NCBI RefSeq assembly: GCF_003264935.1
Contig: NZ_QLOE01000002.1
Coordinates: forward strand, 1-64,000
Origin: Methanothermobacter tenebrarum
GTDB taxonomy: Archaea > Methanobacteriota > Methanobacteria > Methanobacteriales > DSM-23052
Reading direction: 5' to 3'
Length of the DNA stretch: 64,000 nucleotides
Shown piece after piece: positions 1 to 19,760 of the stretch (within the stretch, counting starts at the first letter, position 1; the number at the start of each line of letters is the position of its first letter). Made by a program: the position numbers and the translations under genes. A model generated the notes under the pieces. The model did no database searches and was not told the origin of the DNA. It worked only from the letters and a program-made list of their open reading frames with translations.

Positions 1-46
1 CCCTATTATCCATCCAATATTCTATGACGAGCGCCATTCTGAATAC

Positions 47-2996
47 ATTTCAATCCCATTTTGGTCTGATTTTAACGTTTTTGGGTTTTCCCATCTTGCT
101 AGAAAGTTGACTATTTCAATCCCATTTTGGTCTGATTTTAACTCCCTGAGTAAGTCATCTTTTTTGTCAAATCCCTTGATTTCAATCCCATTTTTGTCTG
201 ATTTTAACTCTTTCTTCATCGATAATCCTTGCCATTGCAAGAAAATTTCAATCCCATTTTGGTCTGATTTTAACACAAATAATTCAGCAACTTTTTGGAT
301 CATAGCAGAATTTCAATCCCATTTTGGTCTGATTTTAACTTTTAAATGTCATTTGTTGGCGTTAGATTATGCTGAAATTTCAATCCCATTTTGGTCTGAT
401 TTTAACCGAATTGTTCCGCTTGGCCCGCTAACACCACCTATAATTTCAATCCCATTTTGGTCTGATTTTAACAGGATCCATATGGATCAACTCAGCAACT
501 AACACCATAATTTCAATCCCATTTTGGTCTGATTTTAACAGTTCCACTATAACCACCAGCATATCGCAGTGTTGATTTCAATCCCATTTTGGTCTGATTT
601 TAACTTGCACCAATCACACCAGCGATACCTGCAATCTATAATTTCAATCCCATTTTGGTCTGATTTTAACGATCGCATTGTCAATATCCTTCTTCAATTC
701 AGAGTAATTTCAATCCCATTTTGGTCTGATTTTAACATTATGACTGGAAAAAAAGAGGAAAAAAAACTAAAAGATTTCAATCCCATTTTGGTCTGATTTT
801 AACAAGAATGGCCTCGTGAAGATAGCGGATCCAACCAAATTTCAATCCCATTTTGGTCTGATTTTAACACATGCTGGCACCGTTTGCATATGCGATGAAG
901 ATAAATTTCAATCCCATTTTGGTCTGATTTTAACACGATTTTACTCAGATGCTGGAATGGAACCGCCAGAAATTTCAATCCCATTTTGGTCTGATTTTAA
1001 CCCAAACTCGCACCACACCTTGATGTGCTAATCCCAAATTTCAATCCCATTTTGGTCTGATTTTAACCACCCCAAACCCACACGCCTTTTCTATACGTTT
1101 TAATTTCAATCCCATTTTGGTCTGATTTTAACTTAATTATGTGCAATCTTCTGAGTAATGCATCATCATTTCAATCCCATTTTGGTCTGATTTTAACCCT
1201 ACACAAACGGTTGGACAAAATAGAAGAATACCAATTTCAATCCCATTTTGGTCTGATTTTAACGTTTATGAATGTGTTAAATCGAAGATAGAGGAAGTTG
1301 GATTTCAATCCCATTTTGGTCTGATTTTAACTTTAATTCCACATTTCTCTGAGGCTTTCTTAACGGCCATTTCAATCCCATTTTGGTCTGATTTTAACGA
1401 GAATGTCATTGACACTCTACCAGAGAATGTGAGGAATTTCAATCCCATTTTGGTCTGATTTTAACCCAACCCAGGGCCTTGGGGTGGTTTTCGGGGTGGT
1501 CATTTCAATCCCATTTTGGTCTGATTTTAACCAGTTTACACAACTGGTGGCCGTTTTGATCAAACAAATTTCAATCCCATTTTGGTCTGATTTTAACAAT
1601 CCTCGCAGTAATGGTCAAAGAACTCCAACTAAGATTTCAATCCCATTTTGGTCTGATTTTAACCAGAGGCATCAACATCCCTAAACTCCACTTCTACAAG
1701 TATTTCAATCCCATTTTGGTCTGATTTTAACCCGTTTACTATCTTATCCTTCTAAAATAAGATGATGATTTCAATCCCATTTTGGTCTGATTTTAACTCT
1801 TGTCACACCACCACCTTTCCCCTTCCAATCCACCATTTCAATCCCATTTTGGTCTGATTTTAACTCATCCTTGAGCTTCTTTATCAGTTCAAGGTTTCTC
1901 ATTTCAATCCCATTTTGGTCTGATTTTAACAATTCAAAAACGCCGTTGCCACAGTTTACACAACTGGATTTCAATCCCATTTTGGTCTGATTTTAACTCT
2001 TATCTCCATGTTCTTCACCTCCATGTTATATTAATTTCAATCCCATTTTGGTCTGATTTTAACAATTTGATTTCATGGGATGATGTTCTCATAAAAAGAT
2101 TTCAATCCCATTTTGGTCTGATTTTAACAATAAAAGATATTGAAGAACTCATTAGATCCAATCTCATTTCAATCCCATTTTGGTCTGATTTTAACTCTGC
2201 AATGAGATCATACAAGGCTTGAAAGAACTCGATTTCAATCCCATTTTGGTCTGATTTTAACACTGAGAAATACAAAATGAAGATAGTGTTGGAAAACAAA
2301 TTTCAATCCCATTTTGGTCTGATTTTAACACTCGTAGAATTCAAATTAGAGGAGCCAATTAGCCCAGATTTCAATCCCATTTTGGTCTGATTTTAACTGA
2401 GTATCAGGGCTTGAATTCTTTTGTAGTGCGTGAATTTCAATCCCATTTTGGTCTGATTTTAACGCAAATATGCTAAAACATCCCAGATAGCTTCTAAAGC
2501 ATTTCAATCCCATTTTGGTCTGATTTTAACCCTCCAAGCAATAGTTCATCGATGTCATCTTCAGATATTTCAATCCCATTTTGGTCTGATTTTAACAATC
2601 GCTTAGGTCCTGGATGGTGAAGGATTCTGTTGGTGATTTCAATCCCATTTTGGTCTGATTTTAACCATGGAAATCCAAGGCCCTGGACAAGAACCTTACA
2701 ACGATTTCAATCCCATTTTGGTCTGATTTTAACGGGTGGATGAAGACATTCCCACAGGTGTGGCCGAACATTTCAATCCCATTTTGGTCTGATTTTAACA
2801 CTTGCAACACTTGAAACGCACCCCTGAGTGTGACATTTCAATCCCATTTTGGTCTGATTTTAACTGTAACTTTGAGGAGAGTCCGGGATGGAGTTTACAA
2901 TTTCAATCCCATTTTGGTCTGATTTTAACTCAAGGAAGTATGAGTCTTCAAATAGTATATCGATGGATTTCAATCCCATTTTGGTCTGATTTTAAC
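47..2996 (-). CRISPR. Main type I-B CRISPR array, 45 repeats
   Basis: Forty-five copies of a 30-bp repeat were counted by eye, the first at 47-76 and the last at 2967-2996, separated by 44 unique spacers of 35-39 bp. On the plus strand the repeat begins ATTTCAATCCC and ends TGATTTTAAC. Read on the minus strand it begins GTTAAAATC and ends ATTGAAAT, the typical 5' handle of type I-B crRNAs, so transcription should run right to left from the leader at 2997 onward. All copies look identical except the one at 179-208. The 46 bases before the first repeat are longer than any spacer here and contain no repeat, which suggests that the trailer end of the array lies at the left edge of the window. Confidence 0.98.
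179..208 (-). repeat. Variant CRISPR repeat copy
   Basis: This third copy from the left end carries T instead of G at plus-strand position 195 (repeat position 17), reading CATTTTTGTCTG where all others read CATTTTGGTCTG. Mutated copies are usual at the leader-distal, oldest end of an array, which fits the leader being on the right. Confidence 0.9.
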
Positions 2997-3350
2997 AGGG
3001 CGATTTTTTCTTTCTTTTTGTTTTATCTTTTTTCTTGTTGGTTGTATTTAATGGTTTGTGTCGGCGGTCCCTAATAATACAATCCATTTATAAAGATAGA
3101 CGACTTTGTCAACGGAGTCAAAAAATGGAATAGGGATAATAGGATAAATTTAGGTACATAAAAGCAGATTAAATGGGGATAGATAGATAAACAAGTTAGT
3201 ATATTTTGTAAAAGACTGAAGGAGAGATAAAGTAACAAAATGTTATAAAAATTGGCTTGGAAAGATAGGTTGATAAACGACAAAATAAGGTTTGGTTAAA
3301 GGCAGAATAGAAGGTTGAAGGGTTTTTAAGGTGGTAATAAAAAAAGTTTA
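2997..3350 (-). promoter_or_regulatory. CRISPR leader with promoter
   Basis: These 354 bases between the array and cas2 hold no convincing gene. Next to the first repeat lies a long pyrimidine-rich stretch on the plus strand (3000-3045), so the transcript would begin purine-rich. A TATA-like box TTTATAAA (read on the minus strand) sits at 3087-3094, which predicts a start near 3062-3068 and about 65 nt of leader RNA before the first repeat. Leader identity follows from repeat polarity and from its position beside the cas genes. The start site is an inference. Confidence 0.75.
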
Positions 3351-3614
3351 TCATATTATTTCAGATATTAGTGATTTTTCGATGCCTAAAACTTCTCTTT
3401 TCATTGCTCTTTTAGTTCTGAAAGAATAGATTATGATTGAATCTTCTGATTCGTTGCAAATAATCTTAAGGTCCTTTTTTATTCTTTCTAGTTGACTTTT
3501 TGTAATTTCGCCTTCAAAGACGGAATTTTGAACCCATAAAAGATATTTTCTTAAATATGCTTTGACTTTGTTAACACGTTTTACATTTATGTCATAAACT
3601 ATTATAACATACAT
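3351..3614 (-). CDS. cas2: CRISPR-associated endonuclease/structural protein Cas2
   Basis: Cas2 dimers bridge two Cas1 dimers in the spacer-integration complex. The 87-residue protein has the family's ferredoxin-like start with the YDI motif at residues 8-10 (VIIVYDIN), the conserved stretch around residue 30 (WVQNSVFEGE) and the usual length. It lies on the same strand as the rest of the cas genes but is separated from cas1 by about 550 bp containing a second small repeat array. It is the cas gene nearest the leader of the main array. No insertion or frameshift is visible, so it should be functional. It is either read through from cas1 across the mini-array or has its own promoter in 3615-3687. 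Confidence 0.96.
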   Translation of the reverse strand: MYVIIVYDINVKRVNKVKAYLRKYLLWVQNSVFEGEITKSQLERIKKDLKIICNESEDSIIIYSFRTKRAMKREVLGIEKSLISEII

Positions 3615-3735
3615 TATTTCAGGTTTTATGGTTCAAGTATAAAATGTTTTCATATTCTTGAAAGGACAAGTAATGAAATAAAAGGATGTAAAAGTTTAAC
3701 TAAGTATTTATTAGCAATTCTTGGTGAGACTCGAG

Positions 3736-3896
3736 GAACAGGGCCGTGTAAAGTAAAAGTTTAACGAACCTTTTGCGCTTTTCTATGTCCCCGTTGAAAT
3801 CGAACAGGGCCGTGTAAAGTAAAAGTTTAACTCGGTCGGATTCGGCATCATATGTCACTTTGACCCGAACAGGGCCGTGTAAAGTAAAAGTTTAAC
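3736..3896. repeat. Repeat B copies (shifted register)
   Basis: Repeat B starts GAACAGGGCCGTGTAAA and ends with the 13-bp core GTAAAAGTTTAAC. Copies lie at 3736-3765, 3802-3831 and 3867-3896, with 36- and 35-bp spacers. Its left 17 bp equal the last 17 bp of what would be the 35-bp spacer 3718-3752 between two A repeats. B is therefore spacer end plus repeat start, keeping the 30-bp length exactly. Confidence 0.88.
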
Positions 3897-4115
3897 TAAG
3901 TATTTATTAGCACGTAGCTTAACCTCCGAAATCCGAAGATAGCCAATATAGTAAAAGTTTAACTAAGTATTTATTAGCACCTACAGAGTCTGCTTGGATG
4001 ACAGGAGGGCGTATGTCGGTAAAAGTTTAACTAAGTATTTATTAGCACACAAGACATTTGATAGCACATGGCGGGAAACTGAATAGTAAAAGTTTAACTA
4101 AGTATTTATTAGCAC
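3884..4115. repeat. Repeat A copies (original register)
   Basis: Repeat A starts GTAAAAGTTTAACTAAG and ends TTTATTAGCAC. Full copies lie at 3884-3913, 3951-3980, 4019-4048 and 4086-4115, with spacers of 37, 38 and 37 bp. A further copy at 3688-3717, beyond the B block, differs only in its last base (A for C). A is probably the original repeat, because the outer left copy is of type A and carries no trace of the left half of B. Confidence 0.9.
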
Positions 4116-4165
4116 CCTGGTCTTGATTTCTTTTAATTTTGCTAATGTTAGAATTCAATTAAGTG

Positions 4166-5134
4166 TTACCACCAGCTTATGAATGGTTTATACTGTTCCT
4201 TTCCTAGAACATGTTTTATCAATTTGTAGCATTCTAACCGTATTAAACGTTTATATGATACTTTTCTCCCGATTTTCCTATGTTTAATTGTCTTTTTAAG
4301 TCTTTTATCGTATTCTGCTATGAATTTTCTTTTCCCATTTTCGTTGAGTAAAGAATAATTTAAATCTTTTTCAAAGTCTGTTTTATCTATCATATTCTTC
4401 TTTATTAGATACAATATTAGGCGATCGATGATTATTGGCTTGAATAATTCGCTGATGTCTAATGCAAGTGAGTATCGTCTTTCAAATGGTTCATGGAGAT
4501 ATGATATAGTGGGGTTTAACTGTGTATTATAGATTTCGCTTATGATGGTTGAATATAAAAGGGAGTTGCCAAAACTAATTAGTGCGTTTGTCATGTTTTT
4601 GGGTGGTCTACGAGTCCTCTGACCTATCCTAAAATCTTTTGGGAGTATCTTGTCCAATAATCTATAATAGTCTGCTCTAGCCCTTCCTTCAACATTCATG
4701 ATCTCGGTTATCTTATCACATGAATTAAGATTTTCTAAGAGAGCATCCATGTTATTATCCAGATTATAGTAGGATAAAACTCGTTTCATGTTAGATATTG
4801 CGCCTTTAACAAAATCTGAGGCAAGTTTTAACCTTTTCTCATTATCTATAAAATGTTCGACTTGTTTTATCAGAAGATCCCCAGACAGTAGCGTCTCCCT
4901 CGGATAAAAACTCCCTGTGTAAAATCCGTACCGGTTAAAAAAGTGTATTGGTATACCTTCTTTTGATAACAAATTCACAACCTGGGAGGAAATGCTAAGC
5001 GCCCCATATGTGTATATTGAATATATAGCGTGGATTGGTAGTGGGCGTTTCCCATCCTTGTTTATGAAATATAATGTGTTCTCTTTCCTTTTTAGGAGGC
5101 CATTTGTAAGTATATAGTAATTTTTCCTAGTCAT
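4166..5134 (-). CDS. cas1: CRISPR-associated endonuclease Cas1
   Basis: Cas1 is the metal-dependent integrase that inserts new spacers together with Cas2. The 322-residue protein has the beta-rich N-terminal domain (KNYYILTNG) and the alpha-helical catalytic domain, with metal ligands visible as Glu149 (NVEGRARADYY), His214 (LHEPFERR) and Asp226 (LALDISEL), so the active site is intact. An upstream GTG at 5170 is in frame and overlaps cas4. I prefer the ATG at 5134 because the family N-terminus starts there and it lies just after the cas4 stop. The 3' end is followed at once by the mini-array rather than by cas2. Confidence 0.96.
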   Translation of the reverse strand: MTRKNYYILTNGLLKRKENTLYFINKDGKRPLPIHAIYSIYTYGALSISSQVVNLLSKEGIPIHFFNRYGFYTGSFYPRETLLSGDLLIKQVEHFIDNEKRLKLASDFVKGAISNMKRVLSYYNLDNNMDALLENLNSCDKITEIMNVEGRARADYYRLLDKILPKDFRIGQRTRRPPKNMTNALISFGNSLLYSTIISEIYNTQLNPTISYLHEPFERRYSLALDISELFKPIIIDRLILYLIKKNMIDKTDFEKDLNYSLLNENGKRKFIAEYDKRLKKTIKHRKIGRKVSYKRLIRLECYKLIKHVLGKEQYKPFISWW

Positions 5135-5141
5135 CGTGATG

Positions 5142-5660
5142 TTATGACCAACAAAATTCAAGGTAGGCACAGTTTCTACATATTTTCTTCCTTTGAGGCT
5201 GTGGAACGTCGCCTTTAATTATGGAGTCTATATCTTGGAGAATTTTTTCTAATCTTTTCTCAATATCGTGGGTTAGTCTTATCTCTTTCCTTTTGCGGAG
5301 TTTTGGATAATCTATAAAACCTCTAATCTTCTCTATTCCCTTTTCATTTTTCAAGTAATAGAGATAATAGAGTAATTGGAAAAGGTGAGCTTCCTCCATT
5401 TTATTGCTTTTTTTAACTTCATGAACTTCAAGGACTTTTCCTTTTCTCATGAAGTCTGCGCTTATAAGGTCATCAAGTATCAAACCCTTTTCTTCCCGTT
5501 TATAAGTGTCATCATGTATCAATTTCCCTAGTTCAACAGCATCTGATTCCTGCTCCATTTGTATATGGTGAGAAAAAAGCCAAAGCTTAGTTTTACATAC
5601 GAAATAATAATTGATTTGAGTTCCACGTACCAGAAGCTTCTTCTCAGCCTCTGAAATCAT
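5142..5660 (-). CDS. cas4: CRISPR-associated exonuclease Cas4
   Basis: Cas4 is a RecB-like nuclease with an Fe-S cluster that trims prespacers and selects those with a correct PAM. From the ATG at 5660 the protein has 172 residues. Four Cys for the cluster are visible (Cys22 and Cys161/164/170, the last three as CRNCAYLEFC), and the nuclease residues His49 (GKLIHDD), Asp69 (SADF) and the EVK motif at 81-83 are present. The open frame extends upstream to 5723 inside cas3, but the ATG at 5660 is preceded by AAAGGA about 10 nt away and follows the cas3 stop at 5674. The gene ends 8 bp before cas1 and is translated in the same run. Confidence 0.95.
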   Translation of the reverse strand: MISEAEKKLLVRGTQINYYFVCKTKLWLFSHHIQMEQESDAVELGKLIHDDTYKREEKGLILDDLISADFMRKGKVLEVHEVKKSNKMEEAHLFQLLYYLYYLKNEKGIEKIRGFIDYPKLRKRKEIRLTHDIEKRLEKILQDIDSIIKGDVPQPQRKKICRNCAYLEFCWS

Positions 5661-5673
5661 CAGATCACGTCCT

Positions 5674-8199
5674 TTATAGGATGGAAGGGGAGTTCGTGCT
5701 TTCAAATATGCTATCCAAGCCAAGTTCTTTTATTGCATTAAGATCATCCGCGTTTATATTACCCCATATGTAAAATCCTTTAAATTCTCCTGTAGTTTTA
5801 TCCCAAAAATCGCTTTTCTCTTCGTAATAAACTGGCATGTTTATTGAGTATTCATAAAGTAATTTCTTAAGTGTCCACATATCAACTTTTTTGCCTGTCT
5901 CCTCCTTTATTCTTTCTATGATTTCTTTCCAGGTTTTAGCGCCTTCTTTTATACATTTTCCAAAAATTTTTTGGATTTTATTATCAGAATCCTGGATTAT
6001 AATATCAGGTATTACTATCTTTACTCCTGCAATTCTTCGGAATAATAATTGGGCCTGGCTCTTTTTCTCTACGCTGAAATATTCAAGATCTTTGAGTATG
6101 TCTTCTATTTTGTTTTCGTAATGCTCTTTCAGTGTTGAATTTCCAATCTTCTTTTTAAACACTTCTAGAATGAGGTTCCTTTCAGAATTATAATCCAAAA
6201 TTTCGCCTTCATATTCTTTAAGCACTTCTCTTGTTTTCTCCACTACTCTCTGATCATATATGCGCTTGGTTCCATTGTCAATTTTTAGATTGCCGTTTTC
6301 CACTTTTCCAGTAAATATTATTATGTTGGGTTCATGTTCTTGGTAATCTTCTTCTCTATTCCTGTAGATTCGTCCCCAGCGCTGGATTTGACTGTCAATT
6401 GTGGATATCTCCGTTATCATCGTGTCAAAATCGAGGTCTACAGAAGCTTCTATTATCTGCGTCGACACAACTATTACTTGCTCTCCATTTTCTACTTTCT
6501 CTCTTATTTCTTTTAATCTTCTGTCTTTTTCGATTTCAAGTATTCTTGAATGGAGAAGGTACACATTAGGATAATCTTCATTTAATTTTTTATATAATTG
6601 AATTGCCTTTTTGACATTATTGACCACTATAAGAAAGTTCTTATTCTGATCTTCTAGAACATCTTTTATCTCATTTTCACTTTCTTTATGGATTTTTAAT
6701 TCTTTGTCCCTAAAAAGTGGTTTATCTATGACCTTTATCTTATGTCTTTTTAAATTTAGATTTTTCACAGGGAGCCCATAATCTTTAACATCCACAAAAT
6801 CGAAATCTTTAAAGAATCTCTTAAAATAAGGGGGGAAAGTTGCAGTCATTATCATGACTTTACCATCTAACTCCTTGATAATATTAACTGTTTTAATGAT
6901 GATAGCGGCCATTTCTTCATTGTATGTTTGTACTTCGTCTATAATAAATGAAGAGAATGGATAGGCAGATATTACCTTATCAGATCCATAATAATTAAGC
7001 GAAGTTAAAAATACCTGGTCTGGTGTCGTTAATAAAACAGGTGATGCTAGGAGCCTTGCAGAAGTCAACATTTTATCAAGATCTATACTTTTTCCTTTCC
7101 TTTCTTCGTCCATGTATTCTATAAAAGCAGTTGAATGAAGAATATCAACATTAGAAGCGTTGAAATAACCATTTTCTTCGTTTCTGAACCTTATGAAGAG
7201 ATCGTTCAATGCTACTCGTAATGGTAATGTGTACATTAATTTTCTATTATTTTTTGCGGCCCAAAGGATGGCAAATTCTGTCTTACCAGAACCGGTTGGA
7301 GCCACAAGAACTAAAGAATCTCCCAGATCTATTTCATCTAAGAGTGTTTTTTGCCATAATTTTTTCACTGGGATTCTTTTTTTGAGTCTATCTTCGATAT
7401 TAACGAATATTCTTGGAGTATATGATTCTATGGGCACGTTTGCACTTGCTGAATAATCTGATCTTCTAAGAAGCCCCAATAAGACTAAAAAATCATAATC
7501 TTCCGCTTTTGGATTATAAAATCCTGCGAAATCAGAAATATCATCATCATGCCTATTGATTTTTCTTAATAAAACCTTTGCTTTATCAAAATCCATCTTT
7601 TTTCTTAGATAATCAATTGCAGAAGAAACTATATTCTCCTGGAAGTCTCTTTTGATAGATTCCAATAATTGAATTAAAAAATCTTCTAATAGATGACGTT
7701 TTTCAATTATAAACTCAAGGTATGAGTTTACTTGATCCTCATAATTATAGACTATTTCCATCAAATCCCGTTCAACAGTAAAATATTCATTGTAATGATG
7801 TAAAAGAATGGCAGTTCTAATTTTTTTGTCTAACTTGTCATTACCTACGAGAAATGTGCTCCATATACTTGAAAGTATTTCGTGACGTGGAGATCTCTGA
7901 AGACCTCTTAAAGGTTTGAAAAACTCCTTTAATTCAATCCAATCCTTATCTTTCCTTTCTTCTGGCTTTAAAACTTTCCTCTGAAAATTATAGTCGATCT
8001 TTCCAAGGTCGTGGATTAGCGCAGCAACTATAAGCCTCTCAAACAAAGTCCTGTCTAAATCGTATGTGAAATTCCCCCTATTTTCGTCAAAAAATCTATA
8101 CATTTCAACAATCCTATTCACAGTCTCCTCTAGGTGGTCTTTTAAAAGATAATTCTCTTGATCACTCGATTTAGCCCTTAAAAGCTCCATTAATTCCAT
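5674..8199 (-). CDS. cas3: CRISPR-associated helicase-nuclease Cas3
   Basis: Cas3 is recruited by Cascade to degrade target DNA. The 841-residue protein is a full fusion of an N-terminal HD nuclease (His22, His63-Asp64 in ALIHDLGK, and His133-134 in LLHHYNE) and a superfamily 2 helicase. The helicase has Walker A PTGSGKT at 301-307, Walker B DEVQ at 421-424, a TAT motif at 452-454 and an arginine-finger region QRWGR near 605. The frame opens at a GTG at 8208, but the ATG at 8199 shares its A with the cas5 stop (TAATG), so coupled translation from 8199 is more likely. No truncation is seen. Confidence 0.95.
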   Translation of the reverse strand: MELMELLRAKSSDQENYLLKDHLEETVNRIVEMYRFFDENRGNFTYDLDRTLFERLIVAALIHDLGKIDYNFQRKVLKPEERKDKDWIELKEFFKPLRGLQRSPRHEILSSIWSTFLVGNDKLDKKIRTAILLHHYNEYFTVERDLMEIVYNYEDQVNSYLEFIIEKRHLLEDFLIQLLESIKRDFQENIVSSAIDYLRKKMDFDKAKVLLRKINRHDDDISDFAGFYNPKAEDYDFLVLLGLLRRSDYSASANVPIESYTPRIFVNIEDRLKKRIPVKKLWQKTLLDEIDLGDSLVLVAPTGSGKTEFAILWAAKNNRKLMYTLPLRVALNDLFIRFRNEENGYFNASNVDILHSTAFIEYMDEERKGKSIDLDKMLTSARLLASPVLLTTPDQVFLTSLNYYGSDKVISAYPFSSFIIDEVQTYNEEMAAIIIKTVNIIKELDGKVMIMTATFPPYFKRFFKDFDFVDVKDYGLPVKNLNLKRHKIKVIDKPLFRDKELKIHKESENEIKDVLEDQNKNFLIVVNNVKKAIQLYKKLNEDYPNVYLLHSRILEIEKDRRLKEIREKVENGEQVIVVSTQIIEASVDLDFDTMITEISTIDSQIQRWGRIYRNREEDYQEHEPNIIIFTGKVENGNLKIDNGTKRIYDQRVVEKTREVLKEYEGEILDYNSERNLILEVFKKKIGNSTLKEHYENKIEDILKDLEYFSVEKKSQAQLLFRRIAGVKIVIPDIIIQDSDNKIQKIFGKCIKEGAKTWKEIIERIKEETGKKVDMWTLKKLLYEYSINMPVYYEEKSDFWDKTTGEFKGFYIWGNINADDLNAIKELGLDSIFESTNSPSIL

Positions 8200-9008
8200 T
8201 ATAACCACCCGAAATTTTTAGATATCTTGAAAACCAGCCCCCCAACATGGTACTCTTCAACAGTTACCTTATCCTCTAAATATATTACTTGATCTGTGCC
8301 GGTATAAATTACACTTTCAAATTCAGGTACCCTATCTGTAGAATTTGATAATTCGGCCTTGTTTGAAATGACACGGTCCTTGTTTTTAAATAAAACCTTT
8401 AGGGGTATGGAATAAACGGGGAATTTCCTATTTTTTAAGGGGAAAGTTTTGCCATTATCTTCTAGCTTAATATATGTTGGATATGTGAGCCATATGTTCC
8501 TTTTAACCTTTTTTTCTTTTAAATCGAAATTTTTGTGCATATTTTTTATGAATATAATATCTTCGCTTCTTCCTAAGTAGAGTATATTAGAAGGTTTCGA
8601 AAGTGACTCTTCCACCTCCAAGAGCATGTTTTTATCACCTTTTAGGAAAATATAATAATGTCCATTGAAAAGCTCCTCTTGGTATGTTGGACTCCTTTGC
8701 GACTTTATATTTTCACTATAAAGGGGATATCCAGCATTCCACAATTCTAGGCGTCTATGACGTCTTCTTAAGGAGACTTCTCCCTTTATCAAACTCTGGT
8801 AATTCCAGAATTTACTTTCGAATAATCCATGAACACTAACCTTTAAATTGTATAATTCTTCGTCGTAGTATTTGCCAGTGGCGTTCTGTAGCATTCCGAT
8901 GATCGTTGATTTAGGCGGTAAAGGATAACTCTGAGCATAATCAAATGTGAATGCATTTCTGTATTGTGCAAATGGTTGGAATATTTCCATGATTAATGTA
9001 TCATCCAT
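8199..9008 (-). CDS. cas5: Cascade subunit Cas5 (I-B)
   Basis: Cas5 is the RAMP-fold subunit that caps the 5' handle of crRNA in Cascade. The 269-residue protein has the family N-terminus (MEIFQPFAQYRN) and the typical motif YPLPPKSTIIGML around residues 28-40. A glycine-rich region near the C-terminus (HVGGLVFKI) is also present. It belongs with the Cas5 of the Cst/Tneap branch of type I-B, judged from its Cst2-like Cas7 partner. It starts 21 bp after cas7 and its stop overlaps the cas3 start. An in-frame ATG at residue 7 is an alternative start. Confidence 0.9.
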   Translation of the reverse strand: MDDTLIMEIFQPFAQYRNAFTFDYAQSYPLPPKSTIIGMLQNATGKYYDEELYNLKVSVHGLFESKFWNYQSLIKGEVSLRRRHRRLELWNAGYPLYSENIKSQRSPTYQEELFNGHYYIFLKGDKNMLLEVEESLSKPSNILYLGRSEDIIFIKNMHKNFDLKEKKVKRNIWLTYPTYIKLEDNGKTFPLKNRKFPVYSIPLKVLFKNKDRVISNKAELSNSTDRVPEFESVIYTGTDQVIYLEDKVTVEEYHVGGLVFKISKNFGWL

Positions 9009-9029
9009 TTAAAAGCGCCCCAGTCCAAA

Positions 9030-10199
9030 TTAAATTTGCACTTCTATACTCTCATCTTTGAAAATTTTCACATCCTTGTATTCACCTTCTTTATCGAATA
9101 TCTTCTCGATAAATGAAAGAATTTTTTCATCATCTAACACGTCTATAGCGGCTTTAAGTCCATTAATTTCGAATAAAGGCTTCCTTGTTTTATTAGTTTT
9201 GTGTTTCACTTTTAATATGCGTCCATTTTCTGTTTCATTTTCTTCTATTTCATCGTATGCCTCTTCTACGTATTCGTCGACAAGAGCTAGTTTGTCTTTA
9301 TATGTTTTGTATGGACAATCACTGTATATTCCTGCGATGAGGAGTTTAGGCGATAAATCCTCCTCCCGACCTTTTATACTGCGTTTTAAATTCATCAATG
9401 CTCTTATAAAATTCAATATCCTCTCTTTAATCTTTTCATTATCCTTTAACCTATATTTGATTGCATAAACATCATCAAATTCTGTGAACTCTGATAATTC
9501 TACGAGGTCTGATTGTAAAAGCTCTTTCTCATTTCTGCTTTTTTTCAATTTTATTGACAATTTTTCTCCACCATCTAAGCCACTTACTTTCTCTATACTT
9601 TCCACTTTGAATTTTCCATCTTGAATAGTAACATCTTTCTTTGGTTGGATGTAAACTTCTATTTCTCCGATATTTTCGATATCCACTACAACAGTGTACT
9701 GATAATATGTTTCGTGTTCTTCCATTGTGAACGGATTGGGTTCCATTTCACCGTGCATTTTTCGCATTCTATTTGCAAGGCCGATGTTGGCATTGAAATG
9801 TGCGTCATACATGAAAGGCGTCATAGAAACAGCATGAGAAATCTTAATAGGAGCCGTTCTAAAATTCTGTGGGGTGGTGTCCGTTATCAGATACCCGAAA
9901 AGATCAAATTCAGGATACTGTAATATGTCTCCAGTTAATAGAAATTCTGTTGCAGGTTGTATAACCTTGTTTTCACCCTTACCAGCTTTTATGAGGTTTT
10001 CTGCTTCGGTTAATTTAAATAAATTCATATTTTGCGCTGTTTCGAGCAAACTGTACCTTATGGCGTACCTACTTACTAGGGTATATTGTCTACCATCCCA
10101 TTTCGTTATTTTCTTCAGTTCCTGATAATTTCCACTGCCTTGGTCATAGTTTAAAGAATTTCCATGGAAAACTATATCTAGCACTACATATTTTCCCAT
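9030..10199 (-). CDS. cas7: Cascade backbone subunit Cas7 (Cst2/DevR type)
   Basis: Cas7 forms the helical backbone of Cascade along the crRNA spacer. The 389-residue protein opens with a sequence typical of the Cst2/DevR family (HGNSLNYDQGSGNYQELKK, residues 13-31), followed by TLVSRYAIRYSLL and the central stretch TAPIKISHAVSM. This assigns the locus to the Tneap-like branch of type I-B rather than the Csh2 branch. It begins 2 bp after the small upstream gene, so both are likely read from one mRNA. The C-terminal third is charged and less conserved. Confidence 0.92.
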   Translation of the reverse strand: MGKYVVLDIVFHGNSLNYDQGSGNYQELKKITKWDGRQYTLVSRYAIRYSLLETAQNMNLFKLTEAENLIKAGKGENKVIQPATEFLLTGDILQYPEFDLFGYLITDTTPQNFRTAPIKISHAVSMTPFMYDAHFNANIGLANRMRKMHGEMEPNPFTMEEHETYYQYTVVVDIENIGEIEVYIQPKKDVTIQDGKFKVESIEKVSGLDGGEKLSIKLKKSRNEKELLQSDLVELSEFTEFDDVYAIKYRLKDNEKIKERILNFIRALMNLKRSIKGREEDLSPKLLIAGIYSDCPYKTYKDKLALVDEYVEEAYDEIEENETENGRILKVKHKTNKTRKPLFEINGLKAAIDVLDDEKILSFIEKIFDKEGEYKDVKIFKDESIEVQI

Positions 10200-10201
10200 C
10201 T

Positions 10202-10516
10202 TTATTCACCTCGTACACTCATTATGCCCATTATGATTGAATATGCGATTTTTTCGAAGTTAGAAGGTGAAAGCGGGAACAACCATTCAAGTTTTCTGGA
10301 AAGTCTTTTAACATGTTCATCATTTTTACGGGAATTCAAAGCCCTTAGTAACGACGAAAAGAAATCATTCTGATTGTTCACTTTAGCTGAATTGAGTAGC
10401 TTGTAAACTAATCTTTGTCTATAACTTTCAGATCCAATATTTTCGAATGCTTTTTTCGTATATATTTTTATTTCATCATAATCTTTTGCTGAAATAGGTT
10501 TTTTAACAAATTTCAT
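10202..10516 (-). CDS. Small helical protein, candidate stand-alone Cas11
   Basis: This 104-residue protein lies between cas8 and cas7 and overlaps the cas8 stop as ATGA, so it is part of the Cascade operon. It is basic and predicted to be mostly helical, with repeated Lys/Arg clusters (FVKKPISAKDYDEIK, RLSRKLEWL). Size, charge and place match a Cascade small subunit (Cas11). In many type I-B systems that subunit comes from an internal start within cas8. I do not recognise a named family by sequence, so Cas11 is an inference from context. It could also be a subtype-specific accessory protein. Confidence 0.6.
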   Translation of the reverse strand: MKFVKKPISAKDYDEIKIYTKKAFENIGSESYRQRLVYKLLNSAKVNNQNDFFSSLLRALNSRKNDEHVKRLSRKLEWLFPLSPSNFEKIAYSIIMGIMSVRGE

Positions 10517-12363
10517 TGTTTACCCCCTATAAATCCTATGAAGAGGCCGAGAGCGTAATAAATCCATGTTTCATCATTTTGTACAATTTCATGGAAAACG
10601 TAATCATTTAAGTGCTTAATTAGCTTTTTATCCTTTTCTGGATTTGAAATTATAAGCCTTAAAAGGGAGTTTACAAATGAATATTTACTTTGTCGTCTTA
10701 TAATAGAAAATAAATGTGGTGCGTTATTTTCTCTTATATCCTTAGAGAATAATTTCTGGATATTTGTCATGGCCATGCCCATTTTTTTACGGCTTTCCTT
10801 TATCTTTGGAATTAACTCATCCAATTTAGCCTTCAATAACATTGGATCCTCAAAGAGATTAGTAAAATCGTGTGCTGGGAATAATTCCGCCTCTACTGCA
10901 AGCGCGTAAAGTAAAGGTTGGACTTTTCGTTGTTTTGTTTTCTGGTTCAGCCTCAAAACTAAGTGATTCATTATTATAGGCATCAAAGATTTATTTTTAA
11001 TGAATTCCTCAAAAAGCCATCTGTATTCATTTTCATCCACTTGCACTCTCTGATTCAAGTTTCTCCTGATATCATCATCCAATAGCAAGGTGGCCTGCAA
11101 TCTGGAGATACCCATATACTCAACATCGATGAAGCGTTGAGTGTTCTCGTCCAACTTGGCATATTTTATGAGGTAAAGGTTTTCAAGAACCCACCATGAC
11201 TCCATTTCTATTATAGTGTCAATAACTGTCTGCCACGTGCCTCTAAAAATACTATTCGGATCCTCCTCACTTTCAATCTTCGATTTTCTGAGCCTTAAAC
11301 GCTTGTTAATTTCATATGTTGTAAAAATGTCATTTGAATAAAATACAAGATAATCAATGTTTCTATAATACTCGAATGCACGATCAAAACAGAAGAGATA
11401 TACAAATAAATATGGTATATTGTTTATAAAGAATTTTGTCTTTAATGGCGCATAATAAATGTTAACTGCTTTACGATATGACGCCAAGAACTTGTTAATT
11501 GTCTTATCTATCCTATTAAGAATATGATCTTCCTTTTCTATCTTAAAATCTATAGCATGATAAAATTCTTCTTTTTGTTTTTCATGAGTGTAACCTGGCT
11601 GGAAGAATAAAAAATTCTTATAATATTTATTATCAATAGGTATCCTAAATACAGTACTTTCAGAAATATCTTTATTACCTACGATTTCGTCCTTCCATTT
11701 TTTATCTAAATATCTATCAACTTTAGAGAGCAGTTTTTTAAATTTTTTAGCATTTTTTATGAACTCTTCCCCATATTCTTTAAATTTTTCTATTGGAGCA
11801 TCCCGAAACTTTTTTATATCCTTATATTTGAATTTTTGAAACCTTCCTTTTTTGTCTAAAAATCTCTTTATTTCATCTCTATTTTTTCTAATAAATTCCT
11901 TCTCAAAATCTTCTAATTCTCTTATTAACTCTTTTAGTTTTTCTAAAGATTTAGAGACTTTAGAGATAAACTTCTTATCATCCACCACTCTTTCTGTAAT
12001 ATAATCTTTCCAACGGCTTGTAGCCGCCTTGGTTATGTGGTTTTCCCATGTAAAGTCAAATATTTCCTTTTTTGATCTGAATTTTCTTTTATAAATTTCA
12101 TTTAAAAAATCTTCAATAATCTTTTTAGAAACTGTTGAATCTTTCCTTTTTATCTCGGAACACATGTAGGCAAATGGGAAAAGCCCATAATATACGATTT
12201 CTTCATTTTCTTTTATTCTCTTCTGTGTCTCTAAAATATCCCACCCATAGATCTCCTCTAAGAGGTTTACGAACCCTAACATTCCTAAATCTATGATCCA
12301 GTTGCCGGTAAATTGTAAAACAGGCTCGCCTACTAATCTCGTTTCATTAGAAGCTTTTATCAT
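10513..12363 (-). CDS. cas8: Cascade large subunit Cas8 (Cst1-like)
   Basis: Cas8 is the large subunit that recognises the PAM and recruits Cas3. The 616-residue protein begins like Cst1/Cas8b members (GNWIIDLGMLGFVNLLEE, residues 20-37). It has a long Lys/Glu-rich helical segment around 130-230 and a helical C-terminal part (about 440-616) typical of the region that becomes a small subunit in related systems. Its start overlaps the cas6 stop as ATGA, and its stop overlaps the next small gene in the same way. Cas8 proteins diverge quickly, so the assignment rests on size, N-terminus and position more than on motifs. Confidence 0.85.
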   Translation of the reverse strand: MIKASNETRLVGEPVLQFTGNWIIDLGMLGFVNLLEEIYGWDILETQKRIKENEEIVYYGLFPFAYMCSEIKRKDSTVSKKIIEDFLNEIYKRKFRSKKEIFDFTWENHITKAATSRWKDYITERVVDDKKFISKVSKSLEKLKELIRELEDFEKEFIRKNRDEIKRFLDKKGRFQKFKYKDIKKFRDAPIEKFKEYGEEFIKNAKKFKKLLSKVDRYLDKKWKDEIVGNKDISESTVFRIPIDNKYYKNFLFFQPGYTHEKQKEEFYHAIDFKIEKEDHILNRIDKTINKFLASYRKAVNIYYAPLKTKFFINNIPYLFVYLFCFDRAFEYYRNIDYLVFYSNDIFTTYEINKRLRLRKSKIESEEDPNSIFRGTWQTVIDTIIEMESWWVLENLYLIKYAKLDENTQRFIDVEYMGISRLQATLLLDDDIRRNLNQRVQVDENEYRWLFEEFIKNKSLMPIIMNHLVLRLNQKTKQRKVQPLLYALAVEAELFPAHDFTNLFEDPMLLKAKLDELIPKIKESRKKMGMAMTNIQKLFSKDIRENNAPHLFSIIRRQSKYSFVNSLLRLIISNPEKDKKLIKHLNDYVFHEIVQNDETWIYYALGLFIGFIGGKQ

Positions 12364-13088
12364 GTTTTTATCACCATCCCAAATCCCATGCTATTTTTTT
12401 CTCCCACTCCGCAATCGTATGCGAATTCAATGAGCCTGGGATCTGCTTCCATTTCAAATCTCATATGGTATGCTCGATGGTATGTTTCAGCCCCACTTTT
12501 AGGTATTTTGATCCTCTTCCTCTTTATCGACCGCTGTTCTGGGACTATTTTAATGTATTCGTCTCCATCGTATTCTCCATGGAATGCGATGTACTTGTTG
12601 ATGAGGTTTTTTTGCAAGTTTTCATAAAATTTAAGATCCGCTGGGTTGAGATCCCATTGTTTCAGCTTCCCATTTTCTTCCTTGAGCGTTCGTGTGATGA
12701 TAGGGGATAAAGTTTTGAATTTCATTCGCTTTTTTATCTTAGGTTTTTTTAGAAGGCTGACTTTTTCTATCCAAATCTTATTTTTTAGAAGGTTTATTTG
12801 GGGATCTGTTAAGAATCCTTCTACAAGTGATTTGATGAATCCTTCGTCTGGTGATGATATGTAGAGGCCTATTTCTCCGTTTTCTGCTATTAGATACTTT
12901 TTGAGGGGTTTTCTTTTCATGATTTGGAGTTCTGAGAATGTGAAAAATTTGTAGTTTTTTGTTTGGTGTAATTTTGCTGCAAGATCTTTGTCGGCTATTT
13001 TGTTGTATATCATGGAGTTTATTGCATAATTGTAGTTGTAGGGTATTTTGATCGGCTCTTCTGCCTTAAATAGTAGGTGTAATCTCAT
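12360..13088 (-). CDS. cas6: CRISPR RNA endoribonuclease Cas6
   Basis: Cas6 cuts the pre-crRNA inside each repeat to leave the ATTGAAA(T)-type 5' handle. The 242-residue protein has two RAMP-like halves, a likely catalytic His near residue 41 (KLHQTKNYKFFTFS) and the C-terminal glycine-rich loop CGVGEKNSMGFGMV at about 226-239 that defines the family. It is the first gene of the cas operon, preceded by a TATA box at 13138-13147. Its stop overlaps the start of cas8. Confidence 0.95.
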   Translation of the reverse strand: MRLHLLFKAEEPIKIPYNYNYAINSMIYNKIADKDLAAKLHQTKNYKFFTFSELQIMKRKPLKKYLIAENGEIGLYISSPDEGFIKSLVEGFLTDPQINLLKNKIWIEKVSLLKKPKIKKRMKFKTLSPIITRTLKEENGKLKQWDLNPADLKFYENLQKNLINKYIAFHGEYDGDEYIKIVPEQRSIKRKRIKIPKSGAETYHRAYHMRFEMEADPRLIEFAYDCGVGEKNSMGFGMVIKT

Positions 13089-17820: not shown

Positions 17821-19760
17821 AAGAGAATGCTAGATCCTTAATAAAGGACATGAAAGTCCATGACCACATCTGTTTAATTTATGAAGATGAAAGAGAATGG
17901 GAATCCACTATCATACCATTCCTAGTAGAAGGATTAAAAGGTAATGATAAATGTATTTATATAACTGACAGGCATAAGAGCGAGACCATAAAAAAACTTC
18001 TCAAAAAGAGGGGATTCGACCCTGAAAAGCTTAAAGGGCAATTTGAAATATTATCAGAGGATGAAGCATATACCCTTGGCGGATCCTTCGACCCTGATGC
18101 CATGATAAAACTCCTAGAAAAGGAAACAGAAAAAGCCCTAGATGAAGGTTATTCCGCCCTCCGGGTCACTGGAGAGATGACCTGGATCTTGAAGGGTAAG
18201 CCTGGGAGTGAAAAGCTGATAGAATATGAGGCTAAACTTAACAGGTTCTTTCCAAAGGCAGAGTGCTTGGCTATTTGTCAATATGAAAGGTCTGCTTTTG
18301 AACCAGAAATCCTTAAAGGGGTTATAATGACCCATCCTATCCTAGTATGGAAGGGTGAAATTTACAGGAATTTCTATTATATACCTCCCAGGATTTTTCT
18401 TGAAGGCGATCCCGCCCGTGCAGAGGTTGAAAATTGGCTTAGGAATATAAGACGTGAAAATGAGTTTATAGAATCTGTTGAAATGTTCACAAGATTATTT
18501 AAGAGTTTTATTGCTAATGTTCCGGCTATTGTGTCTGTTAAAGATTCTGATTTAAGGTATTTTCTCGTGAACGATAAATTTTGCAGGTTCGCTGGGAAAA
18601 AAGAATCCGAAATAATCGGCAAAACCGTCAATGAAATATTTAACGGGGAAACAGCAGCCATATTTGGAGATTTGGATGAAATACCATTAAAGGGTGATGA
18701 TATAGCCATTGAAAGGAAAATCAAGGGCAGATATTATCATATACGTAAGTTTCCCGTGGAGATACCCATCGGTAAAAAAGGTGTGGCATCCATAATAATG
18801 GATATAACTGAAAGTAAAAAATTTGAAGAAAAACTAAGTAAATTGACGAAAAATTTCATCAACATCGTCGAGAACAGTCCAGAGAGCATATTCATCGTTA
18901 ACAAAACAGGGAAAGTATACTATGCAAACCACCAAGCCCTAAAATACTTTGGATGGGAAAAAAGTGAAATCATAGGAGAAAATATAGGAATGCCAATAAA
19001 ACCCAACATCACAGAAGAAATCCAAACCATAGATGCAAATGGCAACCTGAAAACCGCCGAAATAAGAACCGCCAAAACATACTGGGAAGACGAAGAATGC
19101 ACCCTAATATCCCTACGCGACATAACAAAAATCAAAGAATATGAAAAATCCCTCAAAAAAGCCCTAAAAGAAAAAGACGCACTCCTCCTAGAACTACACC
19201 ACCGCGTCAAAAACAACCTCCAACTCATAATAAGCCTCATAAACCTCCAAGAAAAACAATTCCAAAAAGAAGACAGAAAACTACTCAAAGAAACAACAAA
19301 CAGGATAAGAGCAATTGCACGAGTCCATGAAAAAATCTACCAATCAGAAGACCTAACCTCCATAAACCTCAAAGATTACATAAAAGACATCATCTCAGAA
19401 CTAAAAGCAACATACAAACTCCCAAAAATAAAATTCAACTGCCAAATCCAAGACATAAAACTCAACATAAACCAGGCCATCCCCTGCGGACTTATAATAA
19501 ACGAAGCCCTTACAAACTCCATGAAATACGCTTTCCCAGACAAGAAAGGGACAATCACAATAAAAGCATGCAAAAGTGGAGATTCCTTAAATCTTATCAT
19601 AGCCGATGATGGTGTCGGATTCCCAGAAGGATTCAAACCAGAAGAATGTGAAGGTATGGGTATGAGAATAATCTACGCCCTGACAAGACAACTTGACGGT
19701 GAAATAAAAATAAAAGGAGAAAAAGGGGTTAAAATCAAACTCAAATTTCCATACTATTGA
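17808..19760 (+). CDS. MEDS-PAS-PAS sensor histidine kinase
   Basis: The protein has up to 650 residues. Residues about 5-195 form a MEDS (DcmR-like) sensory domain (HDHICLIYEDEREW, CIYITDRHK, CLAICQYERSAFEPEIL). This is followed by two PAS domains (about 230-340 and 345-445) and a histidine kinase whose H box ELHHRVKNNLQLI places the phosphorylated His near 463. The N box INEALTNSMKYA and G box ADDGVGFPEG follow, as in the LHK/HisKA_2 group. MEDS domains resemble a KaiC-like fold, which fits the kaiC-kaiB neighbours. The start may be GTG at 17808 or TTG at 17817 overlapping the kaiB stop. No response regulator gene is adjacent. Codon choice changes sharply near 18.84 kb. Confidence 0.9.
   Translation: MSTLKENARSLIKDMKVHDHICLIYEDEREWESTIIPFLVEGLKGNDKCIYITDRHKSETIKKLLKKRGFDPEKLKGQFEILSEDEAYTLGGSFDPDAMIKLLEKETEKALDEGYSALRVTGEMTWILKGKPGSEKLIEYEAKLNRFFPKAECLAICQYERSAFEPEILKGVIMTHPILVWKGEIYRNFYYIPPRIFLEGDPARAEVENWLRNIRRENEFIESVEMFTRLFKSFIANVPAIVSVKDSDLRYFLVNDKFCRFAGKKESEIIGKTVNEIFNGETAAIFGDLDEIPLKGDDIAIERKIKGRYYHIRKFPVEIPIGKKGVASIIMDITESKKFEEKLSKLTKNFINIVENSPESIFIVNKTGKVYYANHQALKYFGWEKSEIIGENIGMPIKPNITEEIQTIDANGNLKTAEIRTAKTYWEDEECTLISLRDITKIKEYEKSLKKALKEKDALLLELHHRVKNNLQLIISLINLQEKQFQKEDRKLLKETTNRIRAIARVHEKIYQSEDLTSINLKDYIKDIISELKATYKLPKIKFNCQIQDIKLNINQAIPCGLIINEALTNSMKYAFPDKKGTITIKACKSGDSLNLIIADDGVGFPEGFKPEECEGMGMRIIYALTRQLDGEIKIKGEKGVKIKLKFPYY

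Follow-up and report, generated by a model that had tools for sequence, protein, structure and literature searches.

Between cas1 and cas2 of the type I-B CRISPR-Cas locus of Methanothermobacter tenebrarum lies a small array whose repeats run in two overlapping registers. How could such an array have arisen, and what fixed the length of its repeats? The evidence reviewed here makes it likely that this is a natural off-target (neo-)CRISPR array, which would have grown in two registers from the cas1 side through the action of the host Cas1-Cas2(-Cas4).

The cas locus and the anatomy of the mini-array

M. tenebrarum is a methanogen, as its genome encodes McrA. The window, which is the whole stretch of DNA that was analysed (64,000 nucleotides), contains an apparently intact type I-B system in the order cas6-[616 aa]-[104 aa]-cas7-cas5-cas3-cas4-cas1-cas2, followed by the main leader and the main array, with every ORF open and all features on the minus strand. 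According to the ORF list and profile matches, the genes from cas4 to cas6 occupy positions 5142-13088, while cas1 (type I-B, 334 aa; TIGR03641) lies at 4166-5170 and cas2 (87 aa; TIGR01573) at 3351-3614. The 616-aa ORF and the adjoining 104-aa ORF (10202-12363) have no NCBIfam or Pfam match, and are putatively assigned, by position only, as Cas8 (the large subunit) and the small subunit, respectively. The main leader (2997-3350) is conserved in a congener, and the main array (47-2996, near the contig start) consists of 45 repeats of the 30-bp sequence GTTAAAATCAGACCAAAATGGGATTGAAAT (minus strand). An Rfam search of positions 1-6000 gave no match.

The mini-array (3688-4115) has the makeup of a CRISPR array, i.e., direct repeats of 21-48 bp with unique spacers of similar length between them. 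Exact searches find repeat A, GTAAAAGTTTAACTAAGTATTTATTAGCAC, with 30 of 30 bases at 3884, 3951, 4019, and 4086, and with 29 of 30 at 3688, where the final base (3717) is A, not C, through either a mutation or a 29-bp duplication. Repeat B, GAACAGGGCCGTGTAAAGTAAAAGTTTAAC, is found with 30 of 30 bases at 3736, 3802, and 3867. These results agree with an earlier, sequence-only reading of the locus, which had described five A and three B repeats sharing a 13-bp core that forms the left end of A and the right end of B. The core, GTAAAAGTTTAAC, is exact at all seven of its positions; five copies carry the A tail, three carry the B flank, and one, the hybrid at 3867-3913 that had likewise been described, carries both. 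On the minus strand, A reads GTGCTAATAAATACTTA followed by GTTAAACTTTTAC, and B reads GTTAAACTTTTAC followed by TTTACACGGCCCTGTTC. The 17-bp B flank occurs exactly three times, the first time as the end of the 35-bp stretch 3718-3752, just as had been claimed. The sequence-only reading had mentioned neither the mismatch in the first A copy nor the location between cas1 and cas2. This pattern of A and B repeats is far beyond chance.

Read from the cas2 side, the array begins with A1 (3688-3717), the oldest copy according to the reconstruction below, and spacer s1 (3718-3752, 35 bp), from whose final 17 bp (3736-3752) the B flank derives; B1 (3736-3765) consists of these 17 bp of s1 and the 13-bp core. 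There follow a B-register spacer of 36 bp (3766-3801), B2 (3802-3831), a second B-register spacer of 35 bp (3832-3866), and the hybrid, in which B3 (3867-3896) overlaps A2 (3884-3913). The cas1-side part comprises s3 (3914-3950, 37 bp), A3 (3951-3980), s4 (3981-4018, 38 bp), A4 (4019-4048), s5 (4049-4085, 37 bp), and A5 (4086-4115), the terminal copy on that side. The spacers measure 35, 36, 35, 37, 38, and 37 bp (35-39 bp in the main array), and the start-to-start spacing of the cores, 65-68 bp, is like that of the main array.

Order and register of the insertions

In a simulation, six insertions were placed one after another, each into the terminal copy nearest cas1 and each duplicating 30 bp. 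When they follow the sequence s1 (A), B, B, s3 (A), s4 (A), s5 (A), a 650-bp stretch is rebuilt, and within it the entire 428-bp array, with a single mismatch, at 3717. The central proposal of the sequence-only reading, namely that the 30-bp duplication was kept while the entry point shifted by 17 bp, is borne out to this extent, and 30 bp are duplicated in both registers. An exhaustive enumeration of six-insertion histories yielded 240 that rebuild the array. The insertion of s1 in the A register precedes both B events in all 240 of these, in line with the earlier contention that a B-first history fails; among the 240, growth strictly from the cas1 side is found exactly once, and growth strictly from the cas2 side not at all.

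Strict growth from the cas1 side is the course that we infer. Given such growth, the B events would be entries 17 bp inside the then-terminal repeat, at GTTAAAC, and the 30-bp measure of B would run 17 bp into the preceding spacer. The two shifted insertions had previously been placed later than the A-register start; they do follow s1, but need not be internal if the array grew from the cas1 side.

The preferred explanation is as follows. The host type I-B Cas1-Cas2(-Cas4), presumably the native agent, would have placed a spacer in the ordinary DNA that separates cas1 from cas2, and this founding insertion would have duplicated 30 bp to give repeat A, which was probably at first a single native sequence at the site. 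The array would then have grown from the cas1 side, the six insertions as a whole comprising one in register A, two in register B (17 bp inside the terminal repeat), and three more in register A. In every event, 30 bp would have been copied, measured from the point of first attack, and in register B the last 17 of the 30 bp would have been read through the previous spacer. Because positions 14-30 of register B are spacer DNA, the 30-bp measure would need no distal repeat motif, and it would be the complex itself, or at the most the first 13 bp, that determines the length.

It could be argued that an assembly error, or recombination among repeats, made the hybrid and the B copies, as the region is repetitive. 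However, all spacers differ, so that tandem duplication or unequal crossing-over cannot put the 17-bp flank beside new spacers; moreover, every unit falls in the 65-68 bp range that Cas1-Cas2 would be expected to give, and one constructive history accounts for every base but one. Such an origin is hardly credible.

A different mechanism would be the bidirectional use of a quasi-palindromic core, in which case the two registers represent opposite orientations, not a 17-bp shift: for A, the attack would fall on the core's left end in the plus strand (GTAAAAG), and for B on its right end in the minus strand (GTTAAAC). The core GTAAAAGTTTAAC is its own reverse complement at 10 of 13 positions, each of its ends is similar to the start of the genuine repeat (8/13 and 9/13; 13-mers of this kind occur at ~7e-5 per window position), and the odd base at 3717 would be at the far end, where a ruler error is expected. 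On the other hand, the enumeration holds no strictly cas2-side history that rebuilds the array, so this mechanism needs an extra internal insertion, and the PAM side of spacer s5, a single spacer, gives A a minus-strand polarity. Bidirectional use is considered unlikely, and the shifted entry of the preferred explanation is retained.

Spacer sources, polarity, and the resident repeat

Spacer s5 is identical at 37 of 37 positions to the organism's own chromosome (C4:158924-158960). The identity ends at the repeat borders, which fixes the borders of A and identifies s5 as a captured fragment; its protospacer has CCT on the side facing A5. For the remaining five spacers, phages, plasmids, IMG/VR (searched with 20-mers, including one from each of the two B-register spacers), genomes of the order, and the organism's own genome yielded no convincing match. 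Phage matches of the mini-array query had E-values of 0.6-7, i.e., chance level.

Because the main-array spacers gave no usable protospacers from which to derive a PAM, spacers were taken from arrays of same-order relatives (a sister genus) with the identical 30-bp repeat. Two of these matched the Methanothermobacter viruses psiM2 and PhiF3, with 5'-CCT and 5'-CCA, respectively, on the 5' side in the crRNA sense. These two virus matches suggest that the PAM is CCN, which is among the I-B PAMs catalogued in PMC8482600. One of the six mini-array spacers, s5, is thus a captured spacer with a PAM-flanked protospacer. The position of CCT on the A5 side suggests that the mini-array and the main array share one polarity, in agreement with the cas1-side history, the PAM side being taken from one spacer.

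The ORF targeted by s5 (L063:10745-11182) has an RxxxxH motif and adjoins a 1206-aa ORF that is restriction-modification-like; the target region is probably a defence island. A lone copy of the main repeat lies 9 kb from the s5 protospacer (G000:C4:149472-149501), and elsewhere in the same genome there is an array of three repeats (G000:C13:16863-17025), in front of which the sequence is unlike the main leader. The lone copy and one of the three repeats of that array have a one-base variant (GGCC) in common.

If expressed, a spacer that matches its own genome perfectly next to a consensus PAM would be expected to do harm. Both A and B are without the ATTGAAAT 3' end (handle) of the main repeat, and for this reason the mini-array is probably unprocessed. 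Its missing handle and the toleration of a perfect self-target with consensus PAM point to an array that is silent in interference.

A and B have the same length as the resident main repeat (30 bp). A shares with the latter 14 identical positions of 30 on one strand and 12 on the other, levels reached by 2-9% of window sites (at least 14/30 at 2%), and thus shows no clear relationship to it. In ectopic insertion the target is a copy of the resident repeat, to which A and B appear unrelated. Allowing up to 3 mismatches, repeat A is present in 0 of 150 other genomes of the order and nowhere else in the 151 that include its own, and a 23-mer of A is absent from IMG/VR. Nor was a strain with a single A copy found among the genomes of the order searched. 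In one congener, whose Cas1 is 90% identical and whose main repeat is nearly identical, the cas1-cas2 gap is 103 bp and without an array, and it is too diverged from the mini-array locus to reveal a single A. The two genes are nearly adjacent in most other relatives examined. A scan of the genome contigs with Cas1 gave one distant locus only.

These observations bear on whether A is an ordinary foreign or relict CRISPR array, transferred with a repeat family of its own, in which two ectopic out-of-register insertions later took place. The repeat and spacer lengths of the mini-array are canonical, and ectopic insertions are known from other systems (PMC7999890; PMC5338259). Yet a repeat family of this kind has left no trace in the other genomes of the order or in IMG/VR, the ATTGAAAY handle is missing, neither flank of the mini-array resembles the main leader above shuffles, and the array occupies the space separating cas1 from cas2, two genes that almost adjoin one another in most of the relatives examined. 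A foreign or relict origin is accordingly regarded as quite improbable. The A-spacer-A array from which the sequence-only reading had started is probably to be set aside as well: as A is unrelated to the real repeat and absent from relatives, the start was probably ordinary DNA, as in the preferred explanation.

The choice of entry point may also be considered. The B entry, GTTAAACT, matches the genuine repeat start, GTTAAAAT, at 7 of 8 bases, and 0.12% of window sites per strand are as good; A's own start, GTGCTAAT, matches at 5 of 8. Given the tens of positions at issue, it is no more than suggestive, and post hoc, that the shifted entry point (GTTAAAC) appears to resemble the genuine start more than the start of A does.

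Solitary units in relatives and comparison with known systems

Solitary repeat pairs were scanned for in ~637 kb around the cas loci of relatives, together with the window, and in a control of 445 kb mostly away from cas loci. Ten pairs at a spacing of 64-67 were found in the ~637 kb, three with main-type repeats and seven without, and other 4-bp spacing bins held 0-4 pairs each; a further non-main pair at spacing 68, beside the main array in L103, was masked in the count of ten. In the control, the 64-67 bin held one pair and the 68-71 bin one tandem array. Because the control is of modest size and the distant regions were selected by hand, the excess near cas loci should be read as an indication and not as a rate. 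There are about eight non-main units (in G012, G016, G008, G052, G030, and G010, and two in G038), with repeats of 29-32 bp (0-2 mismatches) and spacers of 33-38 bp. The G030 unit has ATTGAAAC at its end and could represent a genuine repeat that belongs to a different system.

The unit of G012 (L078:18533-18629) has identical 31-bp repeats and a 35-bp spacer, and its sister species G008 has a clean empty site, with a single copy at L082, ~18014-18045. The spacer of this unit matches the genome of G012 itself with one base missing, next to 5'-CCC and in the main-array orientation. This unit and the others in relatives are the best evidence for natural stray integration with a ~30-bp duplication in this group.

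Several further details of these units may be recorded. The same two species have different single units (L078:18685-18770 and L082:18091-18186) at almost the same site, on the downstream side of a 400-aa ORF, with registers offset by roughly a dozen bases; the site looks like a hot spot. In G038, an exact 29-bp pair with a 37-bp spacer (L083:7285-7379) lies inside an ORF that adjoins a nucleotidyltransferase-like ORF, and on the minus strand its repeat opens with ATTAAAAC, resembling the start of the genuine repeat. The putatively interrupted ORF has no homologue in the order, and neither half has a Pfam match. The other G038 unit (L083:4075-4172; two 31-bp repeats, 36-bp spacer) lies inside a cas1-cas2 gap of ~1 kb, which also contains two small ORFs.

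The units of relatives suggest that traces of off-target integration persist in the neighbourhood of CRISPR loci, and that such integration can give new arrays their start. A broader proposal, put forward tentatively and at a little under an even chance, is that in this order Cas1-Cas2 regularly founds stray units next to its own locus, that repeat length is set wholly by the integrase, and that new loci become fixed and are tolerated as Cas6 cannot process them. If this is true, any sequence entered at a suitable start would become a repeat, even half a spacer, and CRISPR loci with new repeats could arise naturally.

The mini-array may be regarded as a natural experiment on how Cas1-Cas2 measures length, as it separates the entry point of the complex from the distance measured. 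If the native integrase made the three identical 30-bp B copies, it would be the complex or the first 13 bp that determines the measure, and the locus provides exact sequences for an in vitro test of repeat measurement. In types I-E, I-B, and II-A, the known rulers have been described as elements of the repeat located 8-10 bp away from the distal cut (Kim et al., 2019; PMC6895254). As with these rulers, the second cut in the mini-array lies at a set distance, and ruler errors can duplicate part of a spacer. In contrast to them, B owes its distal 17 bp to a spacer, yet the length stays at 30.

Integration of spacers by Cas1-Cas2 into non-array genomic DNA was reported by Nivala, Shipman and Church (2018), as cited in PMC11788318 and PMC9456107, where non-canonical integration is described for overexpressed Cas1-Cas2 near IHF-type motifs. 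Like those spontaneous loci, the mini-array has its spacers in non-array genomic DNA; unlike them, as far as these accounts extend, it appears to be fixed in a wild archaeal genome, belongs to type I-B, and has six spacers in two overlapping registers. Ectopic acquisition in CRISPR1 and CRISPR3 of Streptococcus thermophilus (PMC5338259; PMC7999890) resembles the mini-array in that insertion occurs away from the normal leader-end site. However, the S. thermophilus insertions described there are inside an established array, whereas the mini-array has a non-repeat target and a duplication shifted by 17 bp. Off-target integration and ectopic insertion are thus already known; relative to what these sources recount, the new element would be a natural two-register array on non-repeat DNA.
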